Part shown: piece by piece, positions 1 to 38,446 of the stretch | Layout of the letters: each line of letters opens with the position of its first letter | Position numbering within the stretch: position 1 is the stretch's first letter | Assembly (NCBI GenBank): GCA_010672165.1 | Contig: JAAHHN010000038.1 | Span: 1-38,851 of the forward strand | Length of the DNA stretch: 38,851 nt | Origin: Spirulina sp. SIO3F2 | GTDB taxonomy: Bacteria > Cyanobacteriota > Cyanobacteriia > Cyanobacteriales > Spirulinaceae | Direction of reading: 5' to 3' | Notes under the pieces: generated by a model | What the model was told of the DNA's origin: nothing | The model's input: the letters and a program-made list of their open reading frames with translations, nothing else | The model's database searches: none | Position numbers and translations under genes: made by a program

Positions 1-796
1 TGCGCTAGCGCATCTCAAGTTCGGCGATGTTCAGGGTGCAAAACTGGTGATTGATACCATTAATAGCGAATGGATATATACCGAAGCGCAAGGTGACTTA
101 GCTGCCTATTTAGCTGCTCAAGGTGCTTTTGAGCAAGCCTGGACTCTAGCCCATCAGGTGCAGAATGTGACGGTTTATCACGGTCATGTTGTTGATTGGG
201 ATACCACAACCCTCGCCCAACTGGATGCCTTTGTTAAGATTAGCCGCGCCTATGTGGAAGCCGGAGCGGGCGCTCGCGCTCGGCAGCTTCTTGAGCAGAT
301 CGTTACAGCAGCCCTTGAAGCACAATATATCCGCTATCTACCTGATGTTGCTCAACTTTATCTTCAGCTTGAGGCGCCCGAAAAAGCCAGAGAAGTTCTA
401 GAGTTAGCCACCCAGCCTGTATTCCATTCCAAGCCAGATTTTGATCGGTCTTGGGTTATTCGTGATATTGCGCTCGCCTATTGGCAACTTGGAGATATTG
501 AGGCGTCTCAAACTTGGTTTGAACTCGTCTTTGACCGCCTTAATCTGGGTGATAATAACGGCACTCAATATAATCCTGAGCAACTCCAACGCGAAATTAT
601 TGACTTTTATATTGAAACAGAACAGTTTGAGGCAGCCTATCAACTCGCCCTCAAGTCTCTTGAACGGGTGGCCAATGCCCAACGAGTTTGGTTAGCTGCC
701 CTAGCTGTGGGTGAATATGCCTTGCCCAGACAACTCTTGGCTGATTGCTCCGTTGAAGTGATGCATCAAGGGTTTGAACGTTTGAGCGACGATTAA
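1..796 (+). CDS. TPR-like repeat protein, 5' end outside window (partial)
   Basis: The reading frame is open from base 2, so this is the 3' part of a longer gene; the GTG at 47 is only an internal codon. The protein is made of amphipathic helical pairs of TPR type, with recurring patterns such as AYWQLGDIEAS and QLYLQLEAPEKA. It resembles the complete 520-residue secreted protein at 5145-6707 in composition and in motifs (compare LYWRLGETERY there), so the two are probably paralogues. No catalytic motif is visible; a protein-interaction role is inferred. Its stop codon (794-796) overlaps the stop of the convergent gene (793-795) within the palindrome TTAA. No terminator is seen. Confidence 0.7.
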   Translation, partial: ALAHLKFGDVQGAKLVIDTINSEWIYTEAQGDLAAYLAAQGAFEQAWTLAHQVQNVTVYHGHVVDWDTTTLAQLDAFVKISRAYVEAGAGARARQLLEQIVTAALEAQYIRYLPDVAQLYLQLEAPEKAREVLELATQPVFHSKPDFDRSWVIRDIALAYWQLGDIEASQTWFELVFDRLNLGDNNGTQYNPEQLQREIIDFYIETEQFEAAYQLALKSLERVANAQRVWLAALAVGEYALPRQLLADCSVEVMHQGFERLSDD

Positions 797-1248
797 CTCT
801 CCAACGCGATCGCCTCTCCCGACACATCCAACACTACCCCATCCCCATACCTCACCCCCTCAACCCAAGGTGCTACCACCTCCAACGTTGAGCGATCCTG
901 AAAATGGGCAGGCTTGGTTTCTGGATGGGGATAATAAATCCAGCCCGCAACCGTTTGCTCTCGTACTGTAAGCCGAACCTGTACAAACGAAAAATCCTCT
1001 GGTGGCGTCTCGCTAAACCACTCCACCTGCCGAAACGTGTAGTCCGGTTGACGCAGCGTAAACTGCTGGGGCGCAATATCCACATTCAGAGTCCCCCCGA
1101 AACAATCTGATAAATCCAGGCCCAACGCCTTAAAGAATGGCATCTGCATCACCACCGAACCCTCAGGATAAGGGCTATCCGCTGCACGACCTGAAGCCAC
1201 TTGATATCCTGGTTTAATGATTCCCGGTATGGTCAAGATTGATGACAT
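793..1248 (-). CDS. DUF120 / CTP-dependent riboflavin-kinase-like protein
   Basis: A protein of about 151 residues. The start at 1248 is chosen over an upstream in-frame start at 1284 because GAGGAG lies 6 nt before the ATG. The layout matches the archaeal CTP-dependent riboflavin kinase fold (DUF120, RibK of Methanocaldococcus): an N-terminal G-x-x-V-A-S-G-R-A stretch, a central LGLDLS then GGTLNVDI signature, and a C-terminal STLEVVAPWVEGVRYGDGV block resembling the family's E-x-I-A-P-v-x-L-R-e-x-x-x-L-x-D-G-D end. Cyanobacteria normally make FMN with bifunctional RibF, so the substrate here is uncertain; an FMN/flavin-related or orphan role is inference. The gene faces the Rieske gene head to head, and their start regions overlap by 7 bp. 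Family assignment is from pattern memory only. Confidence 0.6.
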   Translation of the reverse strand: MSSILTIPGIIKPGYQVASGRAADSPYPEGSVVMQMPFFKALGLDLSDCFGGTLNVDIAPQQFTLRQPDYTFRQVEWFSETPPEDFSFVQVRLTVREQTVAGWIYYPHPETKPAHFQDRSTLEVVAPWVEGVRYGDGVVLDVSGEAIALES

Positions 1249-2342
1249 CTTCTGCTCCTCTCGCAACGCCCAAAACACCAACACACAATCTTACGCCTCG
1301 CGCAATTCGCACCTGTGGCATCAATTTTAACCACTGGTATGTCGTCGCCAGTAGCACCGAAGTCACCGATCAGCCCTATCCTGTGACCCTCTGGAAACAG
1401 GCGATCGTTCTGTTTCGAGACCAAGCAGGTCAAGTTCACACGATCGAAGATCGCTGTCCCCATCGTCAGGTGCTGCTCAGCGAAGGCAAAGTGGTGGGCA
1501 ATCATCTCGTCTGCGCCTATCACGGTTGGGAATTTGCAGCCGACGGTCGGTGTGCGGCTATCCCCTATCTTGCCGAAAACCAGAAACTCCCCAACTGCCA
1601 GCTCCAGATTTATCCAGTGCGTGAGCAAGATGGCTTTATCTGGCTATTTCCCGGCGAAGCTGACCCGGAGACCGTGCCCCTGATGGGCTTACCAGAATGG
1701 GAGCACCTTAACTACATTGGTTCATTTACCACGATCGACTGTCCAGGACATTATTCCTTTCTGATTGAGAACCTGATGGATATGTACCACGGGCATCTCC
1801 ATGACAATTACCAAGCTTGGGCATCGGCTCAGTTGCAAGCGCTAGAAACCAGCGCGACCCGTGTCGATGCCCATTACGAAGCCCAGAGCTACTACCGCAT
1901 TGATAAGATTTGGTCGGTTTCGCAGCTCTTTATCCCCGTCCTACGCCAACTCCACCCGGAACCCTTGGATGTGAGCTATGTTTATCCCCATTGGGCATCA
2001 CGGCTGGGGGATGATTTCAAGATTTATTGTCTCTTTTGCCCGGTGGATGAGACTCGCACCCGTGCTTATTTGATCCATTTCACCTCATTGCAACGGTTTT
2101 GGCGGTTGCACAAGTTGCCGATCGCGTTTCGGCGGGGGGTGAAGAATTTGCTCTTCAATGCTGCCAAAGGGCTACTCGATAACCTGGTTCGGCAAGATGT
2201 GGCGATGATTGAGCAGGAACAAGCGGCTTTTAATGAGAATCCTCAACAACGGGGTTATGAGTTAAATCGAGCGATCGCGGCAGTGCAGAAGCTCATTTGG
2301 CAGCAAGCCCAAGCAGAATCTGAGGAGGCGCGATCGCAATGA
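1242..2342 (+). CDS. Rieske [2Fe-2S] ring-hydroxylating oxygenase, PaO/CAO-like
   Basis: A soluble Rieske non-haem iron oxygenase of about 366 residues. The Rieske cluster motif is DRCPHR (Cys72, His74) followed by CAYHGW (Cys91, His94). The mononuclear iron site is in ENLMDMYHGHLH (Asp179, His182, His186), with a likely acidic third ligand in RQDVAMIEQEQ. Such enzymes hydroxylate or open aromatic rings or pigments using electrons from a separate reductase or ferredoxin; the substrate cannot be read from sequence. The ATG at 1242 (or TTG 1239) is the only start before conserved sequence and has no Shine-Dalgarno, unlike the opposing gene. The next gene, a methyltransferase, overlaps by ATGA, so the two products probably act together. 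Confidence 0.85.
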   Translation: MTSSAPLATPKTPTHNLTPRAIRTCGINFNHWYVVASSTEVTDQPYPVTLWKQAIVLFRDQAGQVHTIEDRCPHRQVLLSEGKVVGNHLVCAYHGWEFAADGRCAAIPYLAENQKLPNCQLQIYPVREQDGFIWLFPGEADPETVPLMGLPEWEHLNYIGSFTTIDCPGHYSFLIENLMDMYHGHLHDNYQAWASAQLQALETSATRVDAHYEAQSYYRIDKIWSVSQLFIPVLRQLHPEPLDVSYVYPHWASRLGDDFKIYCLFCPVDETRTRAYLIHFTSLQRFWRLHKLPIAFRRGVKNLLFNAAKGLLDNLVRQDVAMIEQEQAAFNENPQQRGYELNRAIAAVQKLIWQQAQAESEEARSQ

Positions 2343-5144: not shown

Positions 5145-6707
5145 TTAATGTGAGCGATAGCAATCTATGAACTCAAGCCAGTATTCACGTTTAACTTCAA
5201 AAAAGCTCACTGTAGAGAATCTGTCATTCCAACTCTCTATACTTTCCCTGGCCTGTTGATATTCACGTTGCTCAACCAACTCACCCAAGAATGAAAGCTC
5301 TTGTATTAAGTCATGGCGGTTCCAATGGTAAAACTCGGAATCCTCGATCTCATGAGCTGCGATCAAAGCGCTCTCATAGTCCTCTTTTGCCAAAAAATCT
5401 TCAATTATTTTGACGAGGAGTATGTTTTTCGCTGGCCGGTAAAAATCACCGAATCTCAAAAATTCTAAGGCTAATTCAAACTCTTCGATCTCAATCATAA
5501 ATTCGGCAACCCATTGATTTTGGTTACGGTCTGCAACTACTAATCGATTACCCCAGACAATATCCACCTTCAGAATATCCTCCAAAATTCGCTGATAGCG
5601 TTCAGTCTCCCCTAGCCGCCAGTAGAGTTTTGCAACGTCAAGAAGAACGAAATAACGATGTTCCCAGACCAAGCTAAACTCATACTGCTCCCGTCGGGGT
5701 AGATAATCTTCTTGCTGAAGATCTGATAAATGTTCTTCAAATGTCCGTTGCTCATTTTGAGCTTGAATTTGTGTGAGGAGATCTTTGGCTTGATCGATAT
5801 CATTGAGATCAATATAGACATCCGCTATATCGAGTAGTACAGCAACATAAAAAGGGTTAATAATGCCTCGCATTTCCGAGTTAACAATATCCAACGTTTG
5901 TCGAGCAAGGTGAGGTTGTTCGGCTGCGACATAGGCTTTACTGAGCCTCGTCAAAGTAGACCAGCGTTGCCGTTGTTTGATTGTAGGGGATTGGGAACGC
6001 CCAATGCTATACGCAAAATCACTTGCATGACTTAGATTTCCTTGGGCAATTAAATATTCAATCAGTAATATTTTTCCTTCTACATATCGACGGTGTTCAG
6101 AGTCGATCGATTCAACGGCGACTTCAGCCTGCTTAAGGTCATGATTATCTAAATGAAATTGGGCTGTATTCAGAAAAACTAACGCTTGACCATCATTCCA
6201 ATCGGCATCAACAGCACGACCTGGAGGTAATGGTGTATTCATCAAAGTCCAAGCCTGTTCAAATTCACCCGCCCGAGCATACAACTCGGCAGCCTGTGAC
6301 ACAATTTGGAATGGAATAGCATAACGTGACTCTAGAGATTGTTCAAGGGCGGACTCTAACAAAATAAAAGCAGGCTCAGAATGCTGGATTTCAATATAAG
6401 CTTTGGCAAGCTGTAATTGGAAATAAGCACCGAGAATCTGCTCTGCTGGCTCTGCGGTGTTAGCATCAAGTTCTCGCAAATAAGCCAGGAGTGTATCAAG
6501 CGTCTGAGCTGCGGCTTCACCTTGACCTGACTGATATTGTTCCTGGGCAGTGGCGATCGCCCTATCACTCATCCGATAGGGATCGGCATAAGCAAGCTCT
6601 CGGGGATCAAGGGTTTCACAGGCAGCAGGAACATCTAATGCTTGAGCTGGCGATGTGATGCTGGAAAAACTTAAACACCCAGCCAAAACAATGGTCAGAC
6701 TTTTCAT
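5145..6707 (-). CDS. Secreted TPR-like repeat protein
   Basis: A 520-residue protein with an N-terminal signal peptide (MKSLTIVLAGCLSFSSITSP, likely cut after AQA near residue 23), so it is probably periplasmic. The rest is a chain of helical pairs of degenerate TPR type (for example AKAYIEIQHSEPAF, ELYARAGEFEQAW, DVAKLYWRLGETE) from about residue 60 to the C terminus. There is no enzymatic motif. It resembles the truncated protein at the window start. It lies 33 bp after the GT39-type gene on the same strand and could be cotranscribed with it, possibly as a scaffold for envelope assembly; that is inference. Specific function is unknown. Confidence 0.75.
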   Translation of the reverse strand: MKSLTIVLAGCLSFSSITSPAQALDVPAACETLDPRELAYADPYRMSDRAIATAQEQYQSGQGEAAAQTLDTLLAYLRELDANTAEPAEQILGAYFQLQLAKAYIEIQHSEPAFILLESALEQSLESRYAIPFQIVSQAAELYARAGEFEQAWTLMNTPLPPGRAVDADWNDGQALVFLNTAQFHLDNHDLKQAEVAVESIDSEHRRYVEGKILLIEYLIAQGNLSHASDFAYSIGRSQSPTIKQRQRWSTLTRLSKAYVAAEQPHLARQTLDIVNSEMRGIINPFYVAVLLDIADVYIDLNDIDQAKDLLTQIQAQNEQRTFEEHLSDLQQEDYLPRREQYEFSLVWEHRYFVLLDVAKLYWRLGETERYQRILEDILKVDIVWGNRLVVADRNQNQWVAEFMIEIEEFELALEFLRFGDFYRPAKNILLVKIIEDFLAKEDYESALIAAHEIEDSEFYHWNRHDLIQELSFLGELVEQREYQQARESIESWNDRFSTVSFFEVKREYWLEFIDCYRSH

Positions 6708-36316: not shown

Positions 36317-36554
36317 AGAGATCTAAAATTCCTCTTCGTTTGTTTAATAAATCTACTTGTCTAATAAATCTACCCCCCCTTAAATGAAGATCAAAAAATT
36401 GGTTCTGTAATAACGAGCGCTTAATCAGCCTGGGGCAGGCAAGATGCTCGCGCTACGGAATTACCGACTTATTTTCTTAAGTTCCATATAAGGGGGGGAG
36501 GAAAGAACGAGTAAACTATGTTACTCAGTGCATTCCATTTAAACAAACGCCAGC

Positions 36555-38375: not shown

Positions 38376-38446
38376 GCGGGTATAGTTTAGTGGCAAAATG
38401 AAAGCTTCCCAAGCTTTAGTTGCGGGTTCGATTCCCGCTACCCGCT
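38376..38446 (+). tRNA. tRNA-Gly (anticodon CCC)
   Basis: A 71-nt tRNA: acceptor stem GCGGGTA/TACCCGC, anticodon stem AAAGC/GCTTT around loop TTCCCAA (anticodon CCC), T arm GCGGG-TTCGATT-CCCGC, discriminator T. No encoded CCA. It reads GGG glycine codons. A consensus -10 TATAAT lies at 38357-38362, with CTGACA at 38332-38337 as a weak -35 (19-bp spacing). Confidence 0.95.

Follow-up and report, generated by a model that had tools for sequence, protein, structure and literature searches.

The window analyzed here is the whole 38,851-nt stretch of Spirulina sp. SIO3F2 contig JAAHHN010000038.1 (assembly GCA_010672165.1, positions 1 to 38,851). An open reading frame on its minus strand at 793-1248 (ATG at 1248, stop codon at 793-795) encodes a protein of 151 amino acids, referred to below as P0001, and a good ribosome-binding site, AGGAG, lies 6 nt 5′ of the ATG (1255-1259, minus strand). 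The protein contains the three motifs that a preliminary description had reported for this position, GYQVASGRA, GGTLNVDI, and LEVVAPWVEGVRYGDGV. A gene for a Rieske oxygenase (1239-2342, plus strand; PF00355, E value of 2.8e-24) stands head to head with the P0001 gene, and the 5′ ends of the two genes overlap at 1239-1248 if the Rieske start codon is the one at 1239 or 1242. The redox oxygenase neighbor named in the preliminary description is this divergent Rieske gene, which is followed in the window by a methyltransferase gene.

Several features fit the cyanobacterial setting, including a Tab2/Atab2 gene that neighbors the P0001 gene, 50 copies of the HIP1 octamer GCGATCGC across the window, and the placement of Symploca proteins as the closest relatives of P0001. 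The window also encodes two TPR-repeat proteins that resemble each other in style and may be paralogues; their genes are a few kilobases apart and differ in strand (2-796, plus strand; 5145-6707, minus strand). A 17-base repeat in two copies is found at 36340-36373, and a tRNA gene is located at 38376-38446 (plus strand).

A single-query protein scan of one genome per species identified relatives of P0001 at 38 loci, with 39 to 59% identity, in Cyanobacteriota, Chloroflexota, Verrucomicrobiota, Pseudomonadota, Campylobacterota, Actinomycetota, and other phyla. Among the sampled genomes, in counts that include the genome chosen as the center, the family is encoded by 46 of 386 Cyanobacteriota, 15 of 251 Chloroflexota, 8 of 240 Verrucomicrobiota, and 5 of 349 Pseudomonadota. 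This recurrence, together with 21 invariant columns in an alignment of 49 family sequences, shows that the frame at 793-1248 is a real gene and not a chance frame. The P0001 family is a separate, scattered bacterial family present in at least six phyla. Its protein tree intermixes the phyla, with six changes of the Cyanobacteriota label, at least three of them forced, on a topology with unsettled bootstrap values and some possibly contaminated bins. No archaeal member is among the 38 loci of the one-genome-per-species scan, in which archaea had no separate sampling, and at this sampling a recent transfer from archaea was set aside as the origin of the family. The view of P0001 as an archaeal enzyme inside a cyanobacterium thus gives way to that of a bacterial, multiphylum family.

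PHROGs, PADLOC, and phage records searched for the family returned nothing notable, and the plasmids searched contained one copy, on a Pseudanabaena plasmid, annotated as "hypothetical protein." Most copies from Synechococcus-type picocyanobacteria are extended at the C terminus by about 65 residues that have no Pfam match (LLEFLKFRVLA... in the copy at L056:1480-2127, plus strand); in another picocyanobacterial copy, this extension is a separate small downstream frame (L065:2067-2330, plus strand). A search of literature drawn largely from outside subscription journals found no description of the family, although structural-class databases may already assign it to the riboflavin-kinase superfamily.

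The preliminary description had assigned to P0001 the fold of archaeal RibK, the CTP-dependent riboflavin kinase, with a structural comparison to MJ0056 of Methanocaldococcus jannaschii as the way to check it. The AlphaFold2 model of P0001, built on an alignment of 49 relatives, has a mean pLDDT of 93.7 and a pTM of 0.88. Foldseek searched with this model places five MJ0056 structures on top (E values of 2e-6 to 2e-5), and the next unrelated entry has an E value of 0.04. In VIA-align, the model superposes on MJ0056 with bound CDP and FMN over 127 of 134 residues (Z score of 14.9, 2.1 Å), on RbkR of Thermoplasma over 122 residues (Z score of 12.3, 2.4 Å), and on RibF-type kinases with Z scores of about 5 to 7. 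The MJ0056 sequence used is identical to PDB entry 2p3m over 127 residues. HHalign aligned the P0001 family with eight RibK/DUF120 sequences at full length (probability of 92%, score of 45.3), well above the maximum of 21.6 among 60 block-shuffled versions of the family and the 13.0 of the reversed family. Both the model and the profile alignment show that P0001 has the RibK cradle-loop barrel fold.

Ordinary sequence searches do not reveal this relationship. No Pfam or NCBIfam model matches P0001, and PF01982 in particular gives no match at E values up to 10, so that its curated cutoff is not reached. Across the family, PF01982 weakly matches 15 of the 49 members (best E value of 0.0017), and any other Pfam family matches at most 2 members. 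A PDB search with the single P0001 sequence returned chance matches only (a cystatin and an FrpC operon protein), and a profile search of PDB sequences missed RibK. Only fold and profile-profile comparison reached RibK, which makes the original fold assignment not merely correct but also nonobvious.

The pocket was mapped onto P0001 by sequence alignment alone, with conservation counted over 91 family members. In MJ0056, Thr43 and Asn45 are the Mg ligands and Glu107 is the glutamate on the FMN side, and CDP is held by the GLGEGR segment and by the Arg-bearing MKLR segment after IEIIAP. The GGTLN motif of P0001 (residues 51 to 55; 1084-1098, minus strand) aligns with the GTLN of RibK and supplies the predicted Mg-binding residues Thr53 (90/91) and Asn55 (91/91); the GT-L-N motif of RibK is thus present. 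Glu123 of the LEVVAP segment (880-882, minus strand), the predicted acceptor-side or catalytic glutamate, is found in all 91 members and aligns with Glu107 of MJ0056, within the (I/L)E-I-I-A-P segment whose glutamate (E101) is likewise invariant in our RibK alignment, A2.

Neither of the two segments assigned to CDP is kept. At the place of the GLGEGR loop, P0001 has GYQVASG (residues 14 to 20; 1189-1209, minus strand), with the family pattern G-[HY]-x-V-A-S-G, in which G14, A18, and S19 are present in 91/91 members and position 16 varies (G/Q/R/K/H). In the GLGEGR loop, by comparison, both glycines (G8 and G10 in the numbering of alignment A2) are invariant, and it is the second of these positions that varies in this way in the P0001 family. 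The MKLR arginine is also invariant in alignment A2, and no conserved arginine occurs at positions 128 to 133 of the 91 members, in which the segment after LExxAP is shortened. Of the Mg-CTP and riboflavin pocket, which the preliminary description had named as something to check, the Mg motif and the acceptor-side glutamate are kept and both CDP-holding segments are not. That the family conserves metal and acceptor residues and has lost the usual CDP loops is well supported by these alignments. It also possesses invariant features of its own, namely, Trp77 (1018-1020, minus strand; 91/91), the family-specific EDFSF (residues 84 to 88; 985-999, minus strand; E84, F86, S87, and F88 each 91/91), Gln35, and the family-specific YYPHPETK loop (residues 105 to 112; 913-936, minus strand), which replaces VPKKTYH of MJ0056 and in which Y105, P107, H108, T111, and K112 are invariant.

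Besides the common barrel, P0001 and MJ0056 (PF01982/DUF120) share, in this order, GTLN, the LExxAP glutamate, and a GD turn at the C terminus. The two are 16% identical, however, and P0001 is below PF01982 detection and lacks the GLGEGR and MKLR segments. Relative to MJ0056, it also has an insert ahead of the helix, 3 additional residues in front of GTLN, 5 more in the loop that follows Pro107, and 4 fewer after LExxAP. Its kinase domain superposes on that of RbkR (Ta1064; PDB 5trd/3cta), an archaeal HTH-RibK regulator/kinase, but P0001 has no HTH domain and its family has the invariant motifs described above. The barrel of the RibF kinase module (PF01687) is distantly similar, and its T-x-N motif and catalytic glutamate serve as an analogy; P0001 has no PF01687 match and carries GGTLN instead of PTAN. 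RibF-type kinases use PTAN as their substrate-binding motif (PMC2972280), and an invariant glutamate has been proposed as their catalytic base (PMC5428420).

Bacterial DUF120 proteins share the superfamily with P0001. A protein from another cyanobacterium (L105) reaches the PF01982 cutoff, and one of Azoarcus pAZKH is annotated as DUF120, which shows that DUF120 in bacteria is not unheard of. Both retain the L/I-R segment, whereas the P0001 family does not. P0001 is not filed here in PF01982, since tests for the curated match and for the two nucleotide-loop features found none of the three. The P0001 family is a relative of the bacterial DUF120 proteins and not one of them, and of the earlier label "archaeal-type DUF120 protein" the fold is retained and the family name is dropped. 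The Azoarcus DUF120 gene (L070, 3378-4976) belongs to a phenylphosphate carboxylase cluster, where it is flanked by ubiX and a NUDIX gene and has ubiD nearby; its product may be a source of FMN, or of another phosphate, for making prenyl-FMN. On a plasmid of the archaeon Natrinema gelatinilyticum (L075), a frame inspected by eye apparently joins DUF120 to a HAD-type phosphatase-like domain.

We favor, with somewhat better than even confidence, a reading of P0001 as a Mg2+-dependent small-molecule kinase with RibK-type chemistry, which probably does not act on riboflavin and possibly does not use CTP. Judging from conservation and from the riboflavin kinases, Thr53 and Asn55 of GTLN would hold the metal and the nucleoside triphosphate by its phosphates, whereas Glu123 would activate a primary hydroxyl on a small acceptor molecule. 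Since an intact RibF is encoded in the genome and the family has invariant motifs of its own (YYPHPETK, EDFSF, and Trp77), this acceptor is probably not riboflavin. The remodeling in P0001 of both CDP-holding segments of MJ0056 suggests that a nucleotide other than CTP may be the donor. The earlier suggestion of a new substrate is the likelier one.

A divergent but true riboflavin kinase, dependent on CTP or ATP and serving as a second source of FMN besides RibF, is in our judgment unlikely. It would explain the shared fold and the retention of the Mg motif and the flavin-side glutamate, and Thr111 could tentatively be matched with Thr99 of MJ0056, a residue in contact with the flavin. However, the co-occurrence with RibF anticipated in the preliminary description is real, the genome of the window encoding an intact RibF with PTAN, and the CDP-holding loops are not kept. 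Flavin genes are also nearly absent nearby: among the loci examined, a flavin-biosynthesis gene adjoins a family member only at L018. This gene, ribD, would suit a flavin role, and as a single case it was not accepted as support for one. The other immediate neighbors include ScpB, QueF, UbiA, GST, ChpXY, ABC-2, MFS, and histidine kinases, and no conserved gene neighborhood was found for the family among these loci. Fusions of family members with glycoside hydrolase, GDSL, and glycerol-phosphate enzymes likewise argue against riboflavin as the acceptor.

It is quite improbable that P0001 is instead a regulator or sensor that binds a nucleotide or metabolite in a RibK barrel without catalysis. 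The remodeled nucleotide loops would be in keeping with such a role, the invariant threonine, asparagine, and glutamate could serve binding alone, and a histidine-kinase gene lies directly 5′ of the family gene, with overlapping ends, at three loci in two phyla (L014, L027, and L045). This arrangement does not recur at other loci, though, and no DNA-binding domain is fused to the family. The conservation pattern, in which N55, E123, H108, T111, K112, W77, and E84 are invariant and T53 nearly so over 91 sequences, also resembles that of an active site.

Joint action with the divergent Rieske oxygenase, such as in a shared pathway for a secondary metabolite or a lipid, has a very small probability: a Rieske homologue (61 to 72% identity) is close to the family gene in four cyanobacterial loci (L001, L041, L042, and L050), and the methyltransferase gene follows in the window, but the linkage is absent at the remaining loci, many with flanks of only 1.5 kb, and all four loci lie in a single region of the tree with weak support (the clade of L041, L042, and L050 is the weakly supported sister group of P0001 plus two Symploca copies), so that the gene order may have been inherited.

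For the kinase reading that we favor, the rare fusions offer a weak indication of the acceptor. In two cyanobacteria, a cpYpsA (circularly permuted YpsA) SLOG domain is fused upstream of the RibK-like domain, at L048:1057-1971 (plus strand; by sequence and Pfam match) and at L044:1495-2355 (minus strand; by sequence). SLOG proteins are associated with nucleotide ligands, which makes a nucleoside substrate conceivable. Fusions to a G3P dehydrogenase-GDPD, a GH2, or a GDSL hydrolase occur at L106:4918-7353 (plus strand), at L107:5271-8042 (plus strand), and in a frame of L038 that ends near 6477; they fall into one clade of the tree, and their genomes either were drawn with Verrucomicrobiota or are those of rumen bacteria. 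Fusions occur in a small number of lineages, the partner differs from one to the next, and they do not agree on a substrate; they weakly suggest that the acceptor is a sugar, a polyol, a glycerol-type compound, or a nucleoside.

To our knowledge, the RibK fold has so far been tied to one reaction, archaeal FMN synthesis, plus a regulator form. We give about even chances to the broader proposal that P0001 represents a widespread, undescribed family of bacterial kinases, in which a RibK barrel would phosphorylate a sugar-, polyol-, glycerol-, or nucleoside-type alcohol other than riboflavin from a changed nucleotide donor. If this is true, the retention of the metal and acceptor residues and the replacement of the nucleotide loops would mean that the RibK fold has been reused for another phosphorylation. 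It would also provide a testable function for an unnamed gene of Synechococcus-type picocyanobacteria, many filamentous cyanobacteria, Chloroflexota, and Verrucomicrobiota.
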